A DNA stretch of 64,000 nucleotides from Rhodocyclaceae bacterium. GTDB taxonomy: Bacteria; Pseudomonadota; Gammaproteobacteria; Burkholderiales; Rhodocyclaceae. The notes beneath the pieces are model-generated. The model saw nothing but the letters and a program-made list of their open reading frames with translations. It made no database searches and was not told the origin of the DNA. Both the position numbers and the translations under genes were made by a program. Positions within the stretch are counted from its first letter, which is position 1. Every line of letters starts with the position of its first letter. The DNA lies in contig RXJP01000016.1 of assembly GCA_003963315.1 (NCBI GenBank), forward strand, positions 62,001-126,000. The letters are read 5' to 3'. Below are positions 17,315-60,820 of this stretch, piece by piece.

Positions 17315-17614
17315 GTGAAAATCACCAATTCGACACCCAATCCGGGCCTGCAAGGCGCAGGAACGGTCCAGCCCAGGACCGCTCCCGCTCAGCCGACCTC
17401 CGGCAGCGTGGCGGAGGTCCAGGTTTCCACATCCACACCGGGCATCCAGGAATTGCAGCACGCCCTGGCCAATGCGCCCGTGGTGAATACCGACCGGGTC
17501 AAGGAAATCAAGCAAGCCATTGCCGAGGGACGTTTCCGTGTCGATCCGGAGAAAATCGCCGATGGCTTGATCGACAACGTCAAACAGATGTTGCGTGACC
17601 GCCGCCAGGCCTGA
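17315..17614 (+). CDS. flgM: FlgM, anti-sigma-28 factor
   Basis: The 99-residue protein has the FlgM C-terminal sigma-28-binding region (DRVKEIKQAIAEGRFRVDPE, then KIADGLIDNVKQML) and a flexible Pro/Ser/Thr-rich N-terminus. The start is a GTG preceded by GGAAAGGAAAC. FlgM holds FliA inactive until it is exported through the completed hook. It sits behind a strong sigma-28 promoter and before flgN. Confidence 0.95.
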   Translation: MKITNSTPNPGLQGAGTVQPRTAPAQPTSGSVAEVQVSTSTPGIQELQHALANAPVVNTDRVKEIKQAIAEGRFRVDPEKIADGLIDNVKQMLRDRRQA

Positions 17615-50966: not shown

Positions 50967-51770
50967 TTAGGAAACAGTGGATTTTTTCGGCGCACCGGCT
51001 GCAAAGGGCTTTTTCTTCGGCGTCTCCACTTCCACCACCTTGATGATGGCCACGGAGCAATTGTCGCCCCGGCCCTTGGCCCTTTCCCGGGCCCTTTCGA
51101 TCAAGGTTTCCGCCGCCTGCCTAGGCGGCATGGCGTCCAGGATGCCGCCCATCTCATCGTTCTTGAAATAAGCCCAGATACCGTCGGAACACACCAGGAA
51201 GCAATCCCCGGCCTGCAAGCCCACCGCCTCGCCGAAATCGATCTCGGGCTTGGCCTCGTCCCCCAGGCAGGACACCAGGAGGTTCTTGTTGGGGTGCTGC
51301 TCCGCCTGCTCCTCGGTGATGTAGCCGGGGACGACCATCTTGCGCATGACGAGGGAATGGTCCACGGTGCGCGCCAGCAACTCCCCGTTGCGGAAGTGGT
51401 AGATACGGGAATCGCCACAATGGGCCCAGTCCACCCGTCCCGGCTGGAGCAGCAGGACGCAGGCGGTGCTGTGGGGCTCCAGGCCCGAGGTCATGGCCGC
51501 CAGGCGGATGCCCTCATGGCCGTCGTTGATGCAGTTGCCGAGCATCTCCTTCACATCGCCGCCAGGACCGAATCGGTCGAAGCTTTGCCGCGCAGATTGG
51601 ATGACCTGCTCCGCCGCCATGGAGCCGCCGCTCAATCCGCCCATGCCATCGGCCAAGGCCACCAGCATCGCCCCGGCGTACTTGGGATTGGGAAAAATGG
51701 CAACACGATCCTGCTGCTCCTCGCGGTCGCCGATATGCTGGGCTGCGCAGCTATCTATGGAAAGGGCCAT
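50967..51770 (-). CDS. PP2C-family Ser/Thr protein phosphatase
   Basis: The 267-residue protein has the bacterial PP2C metal motifs: an N-terminal Gly-Asp-Arg-Glu-Glu-Gln-Gln-Asp segment, ALADGMGGLSGG, WAHCGDSRIYHF, CSDGIWAYF and GDNCSVAII near the C-terminus. Its basic C-terminal tail (PKKKPFAAGAPKKS) is unusual. It lies 86 bp downstream of an HDOD gene on the same strand, so the two may form a small signalling operon. No Ser/Thr kinase is encoded nearby. Confidence 0.9.
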   Translation of the reverse strand: MALSIDSCAAQHIGDREEQQDRVAIFPNPKYAGAMLVALADGMGGLSGGSMAAEQVIQSARQSFDRFGPGGDVKEMLGNCINDGHEGIRLAAMTSGLEPHSTACVLLLQPGRVDWAHCGDSRIYHFRNGELLARTVDHSLVMRKMVVPGYITEEQAEQHPNKNLLVSCLGDEAKPEIDFGEAVGLQAGDCFLVCSDGIWAYFKNDEMGGILDAMPPRQAAETLIERARERAKGRGDNCSVAIIKVVEVETPKKKPFAAGAPKKSTVS

Positions 51771-53539: not shown

Positions 53540-55438
53540 CTAAGCGGCGGCCACCGTCGGCGGCAGCAAGGCCGAACGGGGGATACCGCGCCCTTCGCCT
53601 AGGGCGACGAGCAGTTCCTTCATGTCCAGGATCAACACGATCTGACCATTGGAGAGCGTGGTGACGCCGGCGACGCCCTTGGGACGGAAATCATCCAGGG
53701 ATTTGATAACGGCGTCTTCCCGGCCCATGAACCCATCAATGGCCAGGATGAAGGTATGTTCGGCCGTCTGCATGAGCACGCCATAACCCGGCACGCGGCT
53801 GCTGCTCCACCCCAGGAGATAGGAAAGGGGATAGATGGGCATGACCTCGCCACGCACCACCATGGTGGCACGGCCACCCACTTCCTGGATGGCGCCCACT
53901 TCAATGGGCAGGATTTCGCGCACCATGGATAGGGGCACGGCGAAAGGTTGCTCTTCCAACTGCACTAACAGCACCGGCAGGATGGCGAGGGTCAGCGGCA
54001 GCGAAATGACGAAGGTGGTGCCCTTGCCCTGCTGCGACTTGATATCGATGGAACCGTTGAGCTTCTGGATGTTGGTCTTCACCACATCCATGCCGACACC
54101 GCGTCCGGATACGTCAGATGCCACATCCTTGGTGGAGAAGCCCGGCAGGAAGATCAGGTTGTAGCTTTGCCGCTCATCCATGGTGTTGGCCTCTTCATCG
54201 GTGATGAGGCCTTTCTCCAAGGCTTTGGCGCGCAACCTTTCCGCATTCATGCCGCGTCCATCGTCAGCGACGATAAGGACGATGTGATCGCCTTCCTGCC
54301 GCGCTTCGAGCCGCACCTGGGACTTCGGCGTCTTGCCTACGGCGATACGATCTTCGGTGGGTTCGATGCCGTGATCCACGGCATTGCGAATCAAGTGGAT
54401 GATGGGATCCGAGAGATCCTCGATCATGGTCTTGTCAATTTCGGTGTCTTCGCCCACCAATTGCAGCTCGACGTCCTTACCCAGGGAGCGGGCCAAGTCA
54501 CGGGCAATACGGGGATACTTCTGGAACAGGCGGCCAATGGGCTGCATGCGGGTCTTCATCACCGCGTTTTGCAGGTCGGACACCAGCAAGTCCAGTTGGC
54601 TCACGGCCTGGTCGAGGGCGTGCAGGGTATCGGTATCGTTGCGGCCGTTGAGAATATCGGAACGCAACGAGTTGAGCCGGTTTTTGGTCAGTCCGATTTC
54701 GCCGGACAGGTTGAGTACCTGGTCCAGGCGGGTGGTATCCACGCGGATGGAATTGTCGCGGCTCTTCTCGGTCTCACGGCGTCCGCCCACCACCTGGGCG
54801 CCGGGTTTGTCGGTAGTGCGGCGGCCGATGGCGGCATGGATGATCTGTTCCGGGGTTTCACCCGCAACATCATGGTGCAGAACCACGGGCGCGGGTACGG
54901 AAGCAGTGGCAGCGGGCGCGGGCGCTGCCACTGCGCCGGCCACAGCGGAAAACATCTGATTCCAGTCGGGATTGGCGCCGGCGGGGGCCGACACAGCCAC
55001 CGGCGCTATGGGCGCCGCCGGAGCCGCAACGGCGGCTTTGCCCAATTCCCCAGCAATGGCGGCCTTGAGACGGGCGATCAGCGAGGGATCGGCGGGTGCA
55101 GGCTGAACGCCACCCTCCAGGGCACCGAACATATCCCTGACCGAACCGGTAGCGTCGAGGATGACATCCATCATATTGGGCGTCACATCCATCTCGCCGT
55201 TACGCAACAAGTCGAACAGGTTCTCCGTCAGATGGCACAAGGTAACCAGTTCAGTGGCGGCGAGGAAGCCTGCTCCCCCCTTGATGGTGTGGAAGCCGCG
55301 AAAGATATCGTTGAGAAGTTTCTTGTCCTGGGGATTCTGTTCCAGGTCCACCAACTTGTTGTCCACCCCGGACAGCAGGTCAGCCGCCTCCACCAGGAAA
55401 TCCTGGAGAAGGTCTTCCATTCCTTGAAAGTCGCTCAT
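53540..55438 (-). CDS. cheA: CheA, chemotaxis histidine kinase
   Basis: From the ATG at 55438 (MSDFQGMEDLLQDFLVEAAD) the protein has 632 residues. The HPt domain carries the phosphorylated His at 50 (FRGFHTIKGGAGF). A long Ala/Pro-rich linker (about 125-240) stands where the CheY-binding P2 domain would be; P2 is not evident. Dimerisation, ATPase (HLIRNAVDHGIEP, ADDGRGMN, SGRGVGMDVVKTN) and CheW-like domains follow. It phosphorylates CheY and CheB. It is the last protein gene of the operon, 13 nt before tRNA-Ala. Confidence 0.96.
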   Translation of the reverse strand: MSDFQGMEDLLQDFLVEAADLLSGVDNKLVDLEQNPQDKKLLNDIFRGFHTIKGGAGFLAATELVTLCHLTENLFDLLRNGEMDVTPNMMDVILDATGSVRDMFGALEGGVQPAPADPSLIARLKAAIAGELGKAAVAAPAAPIAPVAVSAPAGANPDWNQMFSAVAGAVAAPAPAATASVPAPVVLHHDVAGETPEQIIHAAIGRRTTDKPGAQVVGGRRETEKSRDNSIRVDTTRLDQVLNLSGEIGLTKNRLNSLRSDILNGRNDTDTLHALDQAVSQLDLLVSDLQNAVMKTRMQPIGRLFQKYPRIARDLARSLGKDVELQLVGEDTEIDKTMIEDLSDPIIHLIRNAVDHGIEPTEDRIAVGKTPKSQVRLEARQEGDHIVLIVADDGRGMNAERLRAKALEKGLITDEEANTMDERQSYNLIFLPGFSTKDVASDVSGRGVGMDVVKTNIQKLNGSIDIKSQQGKGTTFVISLPLTLAILPVLLVQLEEQPFAVPLSMVREILPIEVGAIQEVGGRATMVVRGEVMPIYPLSYLLGWSSSRVPGYGVLMQTAEHTFILAIDGFMGREDAVIKSLDDFRPKGVAGVTTLSNGQIVLILDMKELLVALGEGRGIPRSALLPPTVAAA

Positions 55439-55469
55439 TTTGTGTTCTCCTGTCCGGATGGCGCAGGGC

Positions 55470-56285
55470 TTAGAAGCCCAGGCTCTCCAGCAACTCGTCC
55501 ACCTGGGCCTGGGTGGTGACCACATCACTGCGGCCAGCGGCATTCACCACCGGACCGTTCAGCAATCCGTCCGGCGTCTCCGCCTTCTTTTCCTGGGGCA
55601 TGGCTTCTATCAATACGGACAACAGTTGGCCTTCAAGGCCCTGGGCCATTTCGACCACTTTCTTGATCACCTGCCCGGTCAAATCCTGGAAATCCTGGGC
55701 CATCACAATTTCCATCATCTGGGCATTGACCGCCTTGATCTTGCCACTGCCGCCATGGAAAAAACTGCGGGTATCGGCAGCCAGGGCCTTGAATTCATCC
55801 ACCGACAGTTGGTTGGCGAACATGCGATCCCAACGGGCACCCAGGGACTCTGTGCCCGCCAGAAGATCGTCCTGTATCGGTTTCACGATATCAGCGGCAT
55901 TGAGTACGCGGCTTGCCGCCTGTTCGGTCATCTGCGCAATGTAAGTCAGCCGCTGGCGGGCATCCGGCATTTGCTTGGCGGTGTCCTCCAGCATTTTGTC
56001 GTAACCCAATTCCCGCAGACTGTCATGGAGTTGGCGGGCCAAATGGCCCAACCGATTGAACACCACGTCATCCTTGCTCTCGGGTTCGGCAGGGGCCGAG
56101 TCGGGCAGCGCGATTTCCGATGCGACACTATCGAACAAAGCCTGAAGATCATCGGAATCCCCAGATGCATCCGGTTCCGCTACCGGCGCCGCAGGCAGTT
56201 TGGCCGATGTGTTGGCGATAGTATCGAACAGCGCTTGCAGATCGTCTGAATCGCCGGATTCGTTCAGCTGGACGGGATTTGACAT
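55470..56285 (-). CDS. cheZ: CheZ, CheY-P phosphatase, with a duplicated N-terminal motif
   Basis: The 271-residue protein has the CheZ catalytic region MAQDFQDLTGQVIKKVV (about 195-210) with the inserted Gln. Its C-terminal CheY-binding helix is QVDELLESLGF (261-271). The N-terminus is odd: SGDSDDLQALFD occurs twice, at residues 10-21 and 41-52, separated by Ala/Pro-rich linkers. CheZ removes the phosphoryl group from CheY. It lies between cheY (10 bp) and cheA (31 bp). Confidence 0.93.
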   Translation of the reverse strand: MSNPVQLNESGDSDDLQALFDTIANTSAKLPAAPVAEPDASGDSDDLQALFDSVASEIALPDSAPAEPESKDDVVFNRLGHLARQLHDSLRELGYDKMLEDTAKQMPDARQRLTYIAQMTEQAASRVLNAADIVKPIQDDLLAGTESLGARWDRMFANQLSVDEFKALAADTRSFFHGGSGKIKAVNAQMMEIVMAQDFQDLTGQVIKKVVEMAQGLEGQLLSVLIEAMPQEKKAETPDGLLNGPVVNAAGRSDVVTTQAQVDELLESLGF

Positions 56286-56295
56286 GATGCGCCCC

Positions 56296-56691
56296 TTACA
56301 TTCCCAGCTTTTCGAAGATCTTGCCCATCTTCTCGTTAAGGGTTGCTGCGGTAAACGGCTTGACGATATAGCCCGATGCACCCGCCTGGGCGGCCGCGAT
56401 AATGTTTTCCTTCTTCGCTTCGGCGGTGATCATGAGCACCGGCAGGTGCTTTAAAGCGGCATCGGCACGGATAGTCTGCAACAGGGTCAGGCCATCCATA
56501 TTGGGCATGTTCCAGTCGGTCACGACGAAATCGAAACTGGCGGCCCTGAGCTTCTGCAAAGCGACAACACCGTCTTCCGCCTCGTCCACATTGGTGAAAC
56601 CGAGTTCCTTGAGAAGGTTACGGACGATGCGGCGCATGGTAGAAAAATCATCCACCACCAAAAACTTGATCTTGCTGGGATCCGCAGGCAT
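56296..56691 (-). CDS. cheY: CheY, chemotaxis response regulator
   Basis: This single receiver domain of 131 residues shows [20 protein letters not shown] (acidic pair), the phospho-acceptor Asp in [24 protein letters not shown] (Thr) and the Lys in GYIVKPFT. It binds FliM when phosphorylated and reverses the motor. The gene is immediately followed by cheZ, its phosphatase. Confidence 0.97.
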
Positions 56692-56705
56692 TACTCTCTC
56701 CAGGT

Positions 56706-57671
56706 TCAGTCTCTTTGGGATTTCAACAACAGCGGACGCAGGGTATCAGCCAGCGCGTCTGCATCAAACTTTGCCACATATTGATCCACGCCCACACTCT
56801 TGCCCATGGCCCGATTCGCCTCGGAAGACAGGGAAGAGTGCATCACAACGGGAATACCGTTGAAGCGGGCGTCGGACTTGATGTTCTTGGTCAGCACATA
56901 CCCGTCCATCTCCGGCATTTCGGCATCGACCAGGATCAGATTCAATTCATCCAGCAGATCCCGTCCCGATTGCTGGGCGGCAGCGGCCATACCCACCAAA
57001 CGGGTCCATGCCTCCATGCCATTCTGGGCATGTTTGTGCTTCACCCCCAGCTTGTCCAGCACCTCGGCGATCTTCTTCCGGGCCACGGCCGAATCATCCA
57101 CGAAGAACACGTTCAGATCATGGGCGTCGCGGATGGGCTCGATCTGACCAACCAGGGCCTCGCCAAAGGTGTTGGCCATGATCTGCTCCACGTCGACGAT
57201 GGAGACCAGTTTGCCGTCCGGCAATTCGGTGATGGCGGTGATGTAGGCATGGGCGCCGCTGGTAACGGCCTCGGGCGCCCGTACCTTGTCCCAGTCCACA
57301 CGGATGATGCGGTCTACGCCATGGACCAGGAAGCCCAGAGTGCGCTTGCTGTATTCGGTCACCATCATGGACTGTCCGAGCCCGGCGGGGGCGTCGCCCA
57401 ATCCCATGGCGCGGGACAGGGAAACCACCGGGATCACGTTGCCGCGCAGGCTGATCAAGCCTTCCACACCGGCGGGCATATTGGGTGTCTTGGTGATGAC
57501 GGGGGTCTTGCTGACCTCGCGTACTTTGAATACGTTGATACCGAAGGTTTCGTGGGTGCCCAACTCGAACAGCAGAATCTCCATTCGATTGGAACCCGCC
57601 AACTTGGTACGGGCATCCACGGTGTCCAGCAAGGAATTGTTCGCGGGATTGGCGATGGCATTGGTGTTCAT
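56706..57671 (-). CDS. cheV: CheV, CheW-receiver coupling protein (first in coordinate order)
   Basis: The 321-residue protein joins an N-terminal CheW domain ([40 protein letters not shown]) to a C-terminal receiver ([20 protein letters not shown], the Asp in [20 protein letters not shown]). It couples receptors to CheA and may buffer phosphoryl groups. It is the second of two tandem cheV genes, 12 bp after the other; the pair is about half identical by eye, so it arose by duplication. Confidence 0.94.
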
Positions 57672-57683
57672 GTCAATCTCCGG

Positions 57684-58655
57684 TCAAGCGGTTGCGGCGC
57701 TGGCGGCAGCGCTTTGGCGCAGAATGCGCGCCAAGGTATCGGCCAGGCGCTGCGGCTCGAACTTGGAAACATATTCGTCCACCCCCACCGAAATCCCCAA
57801 TTGCTGGTTGGACATGGAGGACAGGGACGAGTGCATGAGCACAGGAATACCGGCAAAGCGCGGGTCGGACTTGACGTGCTTGGTCAGGATATAGCCGTCC
57901 ATTTCCGGCATTTCCACATCGGTCAGGATAAGGTGCACCAAGTCCCTGACCCGCTTCCCCGCCGCGTCTGCGCTATTGGCGATCTTCTGCAACTCGTCCC
58001 AGGCGGCGCGTCCGTTGATGGCGCCAATGAACTTGACGCCCAGGGCGTTCAAGGTCCGCTCAATTTGGTTGCGTGCCACTGAAGAATCGTCGGCGAACAC
58101 CACGGTGAAATTGTTCTGGCCCAGGGGGGTAATGCTGGTGAACAGGAATTCGTCGTCGTACTTGGTGGTTTCGGCCAGGACCCGTTCCACGTCCAGCATC
58201 ATCACCAAGCGGTTGTCCTGCAATTCGGTAACGGCCGTTACCAAGCCCCCCAGGTTGGAAGTGAGCATTTCGGGAGGTACACGCATTTGCGCCCAGTCGA
58301 GGCGGAGGATGGTGTCCACCGATTCCACCAGGAAGCCCTGGGTATGGCCTGCATATTCAGTGACGATCATGATGTCCCGGGGCGTACCGGAATCCATGCC
58401 CACATACTGGGCAAGATCCACTACCGGGACCAGGGCGCCACGCAGGCTGACCATACCCTTGACGGAACTGGGCATGTCCGGAGCGGCGGTCACCTGGGGC
58501 GTACGCATCACCTCCCGCACCTTGAACACGTTGATGCCGAAAGTTTCCCGCCGTCCCGTGCGCTGATCCACGCCCAGGGAAAAAAGCAGGATTTCCAGCT
58601 TGTTGGTGCCAGCCAGACGGGTTCGCGCATCAATATTTTTCAGCAATTCAGACAT
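57684..58655 (-). CDS. cheV: CheV, CheW-receiver coupling protein (second in coordinate order)
   Basis: The 323-residue protein has the same layout: CheW part (EILLFSLGVDQRTGRRETFG, GMVSLRGALVPVVDLAQYVG) and receiver (VVFADDSSVARNQIERTLNA, Asp in [20 protein letters not shown]). It differs from its twin by the insertion QRTGRRE in the first CheW strand and an Ala/Ser-rich C-terminus. A 179-bp gap with an AAGCCG...CGGCTT hairpin (58674-58691) precedes it, which may hold a promoter for cheVV-YZA. Confidence 0.94.
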   Translation of the reverse strand: MSELLKNIDARTRLAGTNKLEILLFSLGVDQRTGRRETFGINVFKVREVMRTPQVTAAPDMPSSVKGMVSLRGALVPVVDLAQYVGMDSGTPRDIMIVTEYAGHTQGFLVESVDTILRLDWAQMRVPPEMLTSNLGGLVTAVTELQDNRLVMMLDVERVLAETTKYDDEFLFTSITPLGQNNFTVVFADDSSVARNQIERTLNALGVKFIGAINGRAAWDELQKIANSADAAGKRVRDLVHLILTDVEMPEMDGYILTKHVKSDPRFAGIPVLMHSSLSSMSNQQLGISVGVDEYVSKFEPQRLADTLARILRQSAAASAATA

Positions 58656-58834
58656 TTCTCAGCCTTTCAACGAAAGCCGAAGGGGCGGCTTGTCGTACTC
58701 CCGAACAATCTTACGCGATTTTTATAAATTTCATCCCTGGGAGCGGCCCTGGCACCGGGATTGGGGGAATACCGTCAGGATATTGCGCCGCACACAACAC
58801 ACCGGTATCAGGCCGATTTATCCCATGGGTCCGG

Positions 58835-60487
58835 CTAACACAGACTCAATTCCACCCGGAGCTGATTGCCCTGGGTATTGAACTCCACCCGTCGTGCCAT
58901 GGATAGCACTAGGGAGAGCCCCCTGCCATAGGGGAGCGGCTCGTCGTCCTTGGCTGATGGGGTTCGATTCAAGATGTCGGAATAGTCGAACCCCTTGCCG
59001 CTATCCCGGCAAACAATGACCACCCCCGCTCCCTCCGGCCCCTGTTCTAGCACCAGAGAAAGCTCGATCTGCGCGGACACCAAACCGGCCAGGCGCTTCG
59101 CTCGCTCGTCGAGATAGGTTTCCATGCCTTGCTCGCCGAGTTTGAGGGAGGAGTCGAGACCCAATACCCCATGATCCAGGGCATTGTTGTATAGCTCGGA
59201 TAACACGACGAACAACACCCCGCCCATATCCTTCACCGCCTCGAATTGGGCTATGGCGCTGAGCATCAGGGGCACCACATCCACTGACCGCATTTCATCC
59301 GGCCCCACGGACAGGGACAATTTCCATTGACCAACGGAAGAGGCGCCCTCCACCGCGCGTTCCCGATCCTGGCGCGACGTCTGATCGCGGTGGCAACTGA
59401 CCACGATCAAGGACATATCGTCCCGGGCGATCAACCCCCCTCCGCTTTGCATTGACGGGGCCTCCGGCAGCGCATGTTGCAGATTGCCATAGCCCTCCAA
59501 CCAGCCCCGGAAGGCCTGCAAGGCACCAGCCCGGTCCGCCCCCGGGGCGAGTTGCCGCAACAATCCGCCAGACCCTAAGGCCAGCATTTCCTTGTCACGG
59601 AAGGTCCAAACATCCGTCTCCACATGGAAGGCAGCGGGCGGCAAGCTGCCCAGGGGAGCGTGTGGTGTAGCCTCGGCTGATTCGTTGTGTTGCCGGGACA
59701 ACAAAATCGGCGCCGGCGTCCCGCCGTTCCAGACATGGATGACGCCGTCGGCGAAATCCACCGAGACCAAGGTGGCGTGCACCGGGCATCCTTCCGGATA
59801 AAAACGAAAAATCCGAGAATTGGCCTCGCGTACGATGGCATCGATGCCAAAGCCTTTTTCCGTCATGCGGTAAAAGGGGGCGACCACGGGCAAGGTACTG
59901 ACCGCCGCCAACGTCCCTTTCTGCATGTCGTCCACCAGCATGATGTGCAGCGCCCCCGCCGGCGTCCGGGCCGCCAACAGCAGATCGCCGCTGAAAATGT
60001 CGGCGGGGCGGGTCCAGGATTGGATCGCCGGATCGCTCAGGGTCTCGTTGTGGACGAACTGTTCCAGCATGCGCCGCGCCTGCCGATGTTCGCCATCGAC
60101 CGCCACGCGCAGATGGTCCACTTGTTTGGTCAAGAGGGCATTGCGCTGCGCTTGTTGGGCGGAAACCTTCAGCAAGGCAAGAATGGCTTGCAGGGTTTCA
60201 ACCGTCGAGGAAGCGGACAAGGGGATGGGCATCGCATGGCCGGGAGACGCCAAGGGCGGTTTCCCGCCCATCCACAGGCAAGGCACCGCACTCAACCACT
60301 CTTTTTCCAAGCCTGGCGGCAACAGGCGGGCGCCGACATCCTCGGCGACGATCACCACATCGCACGCCTCAGGCACTTGCAGCAGCTTTTTATTGGCGGA
60401 ACCGGGACAATCGACTTCGTGGCCCAGATGCATCAATCCCTGAGCGATGGCAAGGGACGAGGCCTCCCCGAGAAAGAGAATCTTCAT
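58835..60487 (-). CDS. HsbR-like partner-switching protein: pseudo-receiver, degenerate SpoIIE phosphatase, HATPase
   Basis: The 550-residue protein has three parts. Residues 1 to about 115 look like a receiver (CDVVIVAED) but lack the usual acidic pair and phospho-Asp. Residues about 150-370 follow SpoIIE/RsbU phosphatases: IMLVDDMQKGTLAAV replaces the usual D-x-x-GHG, the S/T-D-G motif is LGSGGLL (Asp lost), while the late DD is kept (ARDDMSLIVV). Residues about 400-550 form an RsbW-like ATPase with an N box (ELYNNALDHG) and G box (CRDSGKGFDY). The STAS protein encoded just upstream is its likely partner. The fold order resembles Pseudomonas HsbR, but phosphatase activity is doubtful. Confidence 0.82.
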   Translation of the reverse strand: MKILFLGEASSLAIAQGLMHLGHEVDCPGSANKKLLQVPEACDVVIVAEDVGARLLPPGLEKEWLSAVPCLWMGGKPPLASPGHAMPIPLSASSTVETLQAILALLKVSAQQAQRNALLTKQVDHLRVAVDGEHRQARRMLEQFVHNETLSDPAIQSWTRPADIFSGDLLLAARTPAGALHIMLVDDMQKGTLAAVSTLPVVAPFYRMTEKGFGIDAIVREANSRIFRFYPEGCPVHATLVSVDFADGVIHVWNGGTPAPILLSRQHNESAEATPHAPLGSLPPAAFHVETDVWTFRDKEMLALGSGGLLRQLAPGADRAGALQAFRGWLEGYGNLQHALPEAPSMQSGGGLIARDDMSLIVVSCHRDQTSRQDRERAVEGASSVGQWKLSLSVGPDEMRSVDVVPLMLSAIAQFEAVKDMGGVLFVVLSELYNNALDHGVLGLDSSLKLGEQGMETYLDERAKRLAGLVSAQIELSLVLEQGPEGAGVVIVCRDSGKGFDYSDILNRTPSAKDDEPLPYGRGLSLVLSMARRVEFNTQGNQLRVELSLC

Positions 60488-60514
60488 TCCCGGCGCCCGA
60501 TCCCGGTTTGGGAC

Positions 60515-60820
60515 TTAGGAGATGGCGAAGAGCTTGCCGAAGTTAGCGATATCCAACACTTGCTTGACGGCGCCACGACAGTTGCTCAGGCTGACTTCCT
60601 TGTTGCAGCCCCTCGCCTTGTCCCGCAACATGAGCAGCATGCCCAGGGCGGAGCTGTCCAGGTAGTCCACGCCGCCGAGATCTACCACCACTTCCCGGAT
60701 CGCCCCTTGTTGCAACACCCCGTCCACACATTCGCGGAATTCCCGGTGGCTGTTGAAATCAAACCGGCCTTCCAGCTTGATGACGGCACGGGCATCGGTT
60801 GTTATGACTGTGGTTTGCAT
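60515..60820 (-). CDS. STAS-domain anti-sigma-factor antagonist (HsbA-like)
   Basis: The 101-residue protein is a single STAS domain. VIKLEGRFDFNSHREF is followed by the phosphorylation loop GGVDYLDSSALGMLLMLRD, where Ser 56 or 57 would be the target, and by VKQVLDIANFGKLF. It lies 27 bp upstream of the HATPase/SpoIIE-like gene in transcription order, the arrangement of an anti-anti-sigma factor with its kinase/phosphatase. It may also act directly in chemotaxis signalling, since it is inside the che operon. A longer frame back to 61045 overlaps cheB and is rejected. Confidence 0.9.
   Translation of the reverse strand: MQTTVITTDARAVIKLEGRFDFNSHREFRECVDGVLQQGAIREVVVDLGGVDYLDSSALGMLLMLRDKARGCNKEVSLSNCRGAVKQVLDIANFGKLFAIS

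Follow-up and report, generated by a model that had tools for sequence, protein, structure and literature searches.

The chemotaxis operon of this Rhodocyclaceae bacterium encodes a partner-switching pair, a small STAS protein and a large protein of the HsbR/CrsR type, and on balance the large protein, once a kinase that was also a receiver-gated phosphatase, has probably been reduced to phosphorylating and binding its STAS partner, while a phosphatase is provided in trans. At the level of sequence, a distinctive pattern of losses is evident: it is restricted to two of the three domains, both the kinase motifs and the STAS partner are kept, and a paralogue elsewhere in the genome has the mirror-image pattern.

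The locus and its gene order

The window (the whole stretch of 64,000 nucleotides that was analysed) comes from contig C149 of a genome that comprises 3.77 Mb in 168 contigs. This is the only genome of its genus in the collection compared, a singleton genus of the Rhodocyclaceae, and within the genus the losses described here are thus known from one genome. Relatives with a protein of this family in the named collection include Azospira, Zoogloea, Sulfurisoma, Propionivibrio, Uliginosibacterium and Rhodocyclaceae MAGs. The relevant features of the window are as follows.

53540-58655, minus strand: downstream che genes cheV, cheV, cheY, cheZ and cheA, in the same order in most Rhodocyclaceae relatives with the cluster on one contig
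58656-58834, no strand: gap at the position of the MCP genes of relatives, with no significant MCP remnant
58835-60487, minus strand: HsbR/CrsR-type protein of 550 aa (pseudo-receiver, dead-looking SpoIIE-type PP2C, HATPase), from the ORF, Pfam, AlphaFold and a PDB match
58841-59338, minus strand: residues 384-549, the HATPase (STAS kinase) domain with intact motifs, judged by conserved columns and distance ratio
59378-60010, minus strand: SpoIIE-type PP2C domain, residues 160-370, with a degenerate catalytic site (Pfam match to residues 177-364)
59564-59572, minus strand: SGG (residues 306-308) replacing the S/T-D-G motif, whose Asp is kept in all compared homologues
59912-59935, minus strand: first PP2C motif, VDDMQKGT (residues 185-192) replacing ADGxGHGL, from alignments
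60152-60487, minus strand: pseudo-receiver, residues 1-112, with no Response_reg match, aligned to the receivers of relatives and modelled without alpha-4
60515-60820, minus strand: STAS protein (HsbA/CrsA-like) of 101 aa, from Pfam STAS_2/STAS and identity to homologues
60653-60655, minus strand: codon of STAS Ser56, the predicted phosphosite, from conservation and HsbA Ser56 (PMC6482189)
60867-63400, minus strand: upstream che genes cheB, cheD and cheR, in the same order in many relatives

The gene order around the pair, cheR-cheD-cheB-STAS-HsbR followed by cheV-cheV-cheY-cheZ-cheA, is an arrangement common to many relatives. In most Rhodocyclaceae relatives HsbR and cheV are separated by one or two MCP genes, which are absent there from the window and from Azospira sp. 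I13 (L130); a candidate MCP remnant in the 180-bp gap was rejected, its match (E 0.6) being at chance level. A set of 80 related loci comes from an alignment-based search, the window protein as a single query having retrieved none. A maximum-likelihood tree of 81 rows places the window protein among the che-linked Rhodocyclaceae (a clade of 11 rows, 99/97), as the longest end branch of the family (2.01) and with its exact sister unsure. Both this tree and the conserved gene order indicate common descent with the che-linked HsbR clade. An HsbR/HsbA-type pair within the che operon, as the sequence-only reading had proposed, is upheld by the domain order, the adjacent STAS protein with its Ser56 and the conserved cluster.

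Two degenerate domains

The window protein has the order receiver-PP2C-HATPase, its receiver being recognisable by alignment and predicted fold only. Pfam gives no Response_reg match to it, whereas the receivers of three che-linked relatives score 62-86 bits. Among the residues of a phosphorylatable receiver (Asp, T/S and Lys), the T/S and the Lys are lost, along with helix alpha-4, and the phospho-Asp position is ambiguous: it is occupied by Ala48 in one alignment and by Asp50 in another, and one acid therefore still lies nearby. The earlier description of a receiver devoid of phosphorylation residues agrees with this, the Asp position being alignment-dependent.

The PP2C domain is also degraded, with a SpoIIE Pfam score of 61.2 bits as against 101-125 bits in three che-linked relatives. 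It reads V-D-D-M-Q-K-G where relatives carry A-D-G-x-G-H-G, and S306-G307-G308 where they carry S/T-D-G. The Asp at position 307 is kept by all the other proteins of an 83-row homologue alignment and by 80/80 relatives (78 SDG, 2 TDG) in a second set that shares some of its members. When a profile built from 16 PP2C domains of the family is aligned with SpoIIE, D186 of the window protein corresponds to SpoIIE D628, D187 to G629, Q189 to G631 and G307 to D746, and the 356-357 pair falls at D795. In SpoIIE, D628, D746 and D795 are putative metal-coordinating side chains, G629 is given as a ligand through its carbonyl, and G631 may also bind M2, as its RsbX counterpart does (PMC5468089). The metal site is consequently incomplete, D307G and G189Q having removed the equivalents of D746 and G631, and to judge by these alignments Asp307 and Gly189 are the weighty losses. 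The His of the first motif was considered as a catalytic loss and rejected: SpoIIE has Asn there, and sister lineages have Arg, Ser or Thr. The sequence-only reading, which had pointed to the absence of the Asp of S/T-D-G and of the Gly-His of the first motif, was correct as to the residues missing, but the His is not decisive.

Could the domain still work as a residual or altered phosphatase through a rearranged metal site? Asp168, Asp186, Asp356 and Asp357 all remain at that site, so weak activity is still compatible with the sequence. Nevertheless, the Asp that was lost is one that every homologue compared has kept and that in SpoIIE is a putative metal-coordinating side chain (PMC5468089), and Gly189 is lost too, which makes such activity very unlikely. 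More broadly, 10/37 conserved PP2C columns are lost, the highest fraction among the aligned homologues scored; a concentration of these losses in the catalytic motifs was not significant (Fisher p = 0.27).

An intact-looking kinase and its substrate

The third domain is quite different. Its HATPase_c_2 score of 32.8 bits is above the cut-off, three che-linked relatives scoring 26-32 bits, and the N, G1 and G2 boxes are all present, the motifs SELYNNALDHG, DSGKGF and GRGLSL being kept. This confirms, as far as sequence can, the earlier claim of an intact ATPase kinase site. With a lowered SpoIIE score, an absent receiver score and a normal HATPase score, it is the first two domains that are degraded and not the third.

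The STAS protein matches Pfam STAS_2 at 65.6 bits and is 50-72% identical to the HsbR-adjacent STAS proteins of relatives. Its Ser56, in YLDSSALGM, is invariant across 14 STAS homologues and has the same residue number as the phosphosite of Pseudomonas aeruginosa HsbA (PMC6482189); the phosphorylatable Ser that had been noted at the outset is therefore indeed retained.

The structure prediction proposed earlier, an AlphaFold model of the window protein (57 sequences; mean pLDDT 83.8, pTM 0.59), shows an N-terminus that resembles a receiver without alpha-4, then a long linker helix, followed by the PP2C fold and the HATPase. The best PDB matches found by Foldseek are P. aeruginosa RssB and Mycobacterium tuberculosis Rv1364c. 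Over its first two domains the protein matches RssB best in structure, and perhaps the dead PP2C and the pseudo-receiver have been kept as a scaffold or adaptor, for dimerisation or for binding the STAS protein, a sigma factor or chemotaxis proteins. RssB is without the active-site residues (PMC7226468) and is described as a pseudo-phosphatase that descends from an active enzyme (PMC12143880), and the window PP2C keeps the fold-core residues F205, G212, P231 and W253-G256. The protein is not of the RssB type in the strict sense (receiver plus PP2C fold without HATPase): the fold fits, but a HATPase is present. Furthermore, the 1.9-fold distance of its PP2C domain (see below) resembles relaxed constraint more than a conserved new interface. 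We regard this reading as unlikely in itself; it is compatible with a protein reduced to a STAS kinase and binder.

Loss by domain and in sister lineages

To express the divergence of each domain we used a distance ratio, which sets the mean distance between the window sequence and 11-14 che-linked Rhodocyclaceae relatives against the mean distance of these relatives from one another. This ratio is 2.64 for the receiver, 1.91 for the PP2C and 1.20 for the HATPase domain, compared with 0.99 for the STAS protein and 0.80-1.06 for CheA, CheB, CheD, CheR, CheV1, CheV2, CheY and CheZ. Similarly, 4/10 conserved columns are lost in the receiver and only 1/27 in the HATPase. Distance is thus raised only in the receiver and the PP2C and is normal in the HATPase, STAS and Che proteins, which argues for a domain-specific loss rather than decay of the whole gene.

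The rival view, that the protein as a whole is heading towards a pseudogene and the partner switch is being lost, would agree with the longest branch in the family and has apparent parallels among relatives. In genome G478 the HsbR protein (L134:3077-4654) has a broken C-terminus with neither DxGxG nor GRG (the MCP adjoining it is in pieces as well), and in genome G321 the che-linked STAS gene is kept (L291:8215-8520) while the adjacent HsbR gene has gone from the operon. It is nonetheless quite improbable for the window protein, given that HATPase and STAS are under normal constraint, the 550-codon frame is intact and its GC3 is like that of its neighbours. The retention of the STAS gene in G321 without an adjacent HsbR suggests that a che-linked STAS protein can apparently be served from elsewhere. 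The three-domain HsbR-like protein that G321 still has (L135) is kin of the C58 clade described below, and all three of its domains are recognisable.

Milder losses are found in other Rhodocyclaceae. The receiver phosphosite is also lost in Sulfurisoma sediminicola (L198), a Uliginosibacterium MAG (L217), L200 and L222; the first PP2C motif is altered in L195, L196, L200, L201, L210 and L222; and SGD is replaced in L196 (by SGA) and L222 (by GGN). Receiver and PP2C changes thus coincide in L200 and L222. The HATPase motifs are kept in all the Rhodocyclaceae with changes in the receiver or the first PP2C motif, and a STAS gene adjoins HsbR in each one checked. Judged from these alignments, the milder losses recur in sister lineages and the window protein is the furthest point reached with an intact-looking kinase. 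The HsbR receivers of L090, L091, L093 and L094, from a different family of the order (f13), have independently lost their acidic residues; these proteins have an intact PP2C and a variant N box, ELLANALDYG.

A mirror-image paralogue and other candidate phosphatases

The same genome encodes an unlinked three-part paralogue on contig C58 (L054:1434-3185), beside clpA/clpS. It scores 80.9 bits for Response_reg and 108.6 bits for SpoIIE, with GHG, SDG and DD intact; its HATPase region gives no Pfam match, and there ELLANALDYG is present and the GRG box absent. By far its closest match among the 200 family genomes searched is in genome G333 (L290:6202-7926), which has the same domain pattern and also lies near clpS-clpA; a che-linked HsbR was not found in G333, a genome 85% complete. 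The G333 orthologue implies that the paralogue predates the split of the two genomes and did not arise as a partner of the window protein. From its motifs in this one genome, the C58 paralogue possibly supplies the missing phosphatase in trans, and it is a better candidate than the PP2C at 50967 within the window. A more ambitious version, that the losses are complementary, the che-linked copy keeping the kinase and the C58 copy a receiver-gated phosphatase so that jointly they rebuild one HsbR function, is tentative and somewhat doubtful.

The sequence-only reading had suggested that the separate PP2C at 50967 might replace the lost activity. This Stp1-like protein is encoded only 7 kb from the HsbR gene of the window, but it is not of the SpoIIE type and its orthologues lie 107-126 kb off or on other contigs in relatives, being present and unlinked where the HsbR PP2C is intact or less degenerate; in three relatives no close orthologue was found. 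That it took over from the lost phosphatase is accordingly highly improbable, and the suggestion has not stood up.

Contig C106 carries the gene of a receiver-PAS-SpoIIE protein (L055:8073-9659) and, nearby, a small separate ORF for a HATPase; a search with the window STAS gave no match on that contig. A second stand-alone STAS protein of the genome, on contig C24 (L160:14178-14480), is 48% identical to the window STAS and is a possible alternative partner for the C58 protein.

A probably reduced protein and known partner switches

We infer the kinase activity, the absence of phosphatase activity and the rescue in trans from these sequence comparisons. Point changes and small deletions would have been the route of reduction. 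The HATPase domain would phosphorylate Ser56 of the STAS protein and would bind that protein and perhaps also a sigma factor or anti-sigma factor. The receiver would have lost its normal response to a phosphate signal, and the PP2C would no longer strip phosphate from the STAS protein, the two dead domains serving as a dimerisation or docking scaffold at most. With a dead PP2C, the STAS protein would stay phosphorylated unless another phosphatase acts; dephosphorylation would then be supplied in trans, the C58 paralogue being the best candidate. By homology with HsbR-HsbA (PMC6482189), the unphosphorylated STAS protein is expected to bind an anti-sigma factor, for example FlgM, and the phosphorylated form to stay with the kinase or other targets. 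An FlgM gene lies within the window (17417-17575), and the genome has an RpoS gene that seems to be divided between two contig ends (306.5 and 134.7 bits).

P. aeruginosa HsbR-HsbA resembles the present pair in its receiver-PP2C-HATPase protein, its STAS partner phosphorylated at Ser56 and the occurrence of FlgM. However, the HsbR receiver is fed by HptB and its phosphatase step is active (PMC6482189), whereas in the window both look dead, and the window pair is located in a che operon. As the sequence-only reading had anticipated, signal input and dephosphorylation must therefore be altered relative to HsbR, both the receiver and the PP2C being degenerate. For the che-operon location, the nearest precedent is one that the sequence-only reading left out, CrsR-CrsA of Shewanella oneidensis, a partner switch in the che1 locus together with cheR, cheD, cheB, cheY, cheA and MCPs (PMC9855816), and the source genome shares an RpoS gene with that system as well. 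Nevertheless, CrsR is described as dephosphorylating CrsA (PMC6482189), and the PP2C of the window protein has lost both D307 and G189. RssB (E. coli, P. aeruginosa) is likewise a receiver plus a PP2C-fold domain, and in E. coli it lost phosphatase activity and became an adaptor (PMC12143880); unlike the window protein, RssB is without a HATPase domain, and in E. coli its role is in the proteolysis of RpoS.

The part of the window protein that would stay active, a HATPase kinase of a STAS protein, would resemble the RsbW/SpoIIAB type, although here it is still fused to two degenerate domains. RsbW and SpoIIAB are stand-alone HATPase kinases of STAS proteins, the phosphatase being on another protein.

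A partner switch in a che operon (PMC9855816) and a PP2C-fold domain turned inactive adaptor (PMC12143880, PMC7226468) are already known. What appears to be new in the literature searched is a receiver-PP2C-HATPase protein reduced to a kinase, accompanied by intermediate stages in relatives and by a paralogue of the opposite kind in its own genome. That literature yielded no work on a che-linked STAS protein in Betaproteobacteria, and the present pair makes it possible to ask what this protein does there. If the complementary loss is real, the phosphatase signal would be uncoupled from the chemotaxis operon and one function would be spread across two loci. The window protein offers a natural case in which two of the three domains of a signalling protein have lost constraint while the third and its substrate have not, with sister lineages showing the intermediates, and it opens the question of how a bifunctional kinase-phosphatase is dismantled and whether the opposing activity moves to a paralogue.
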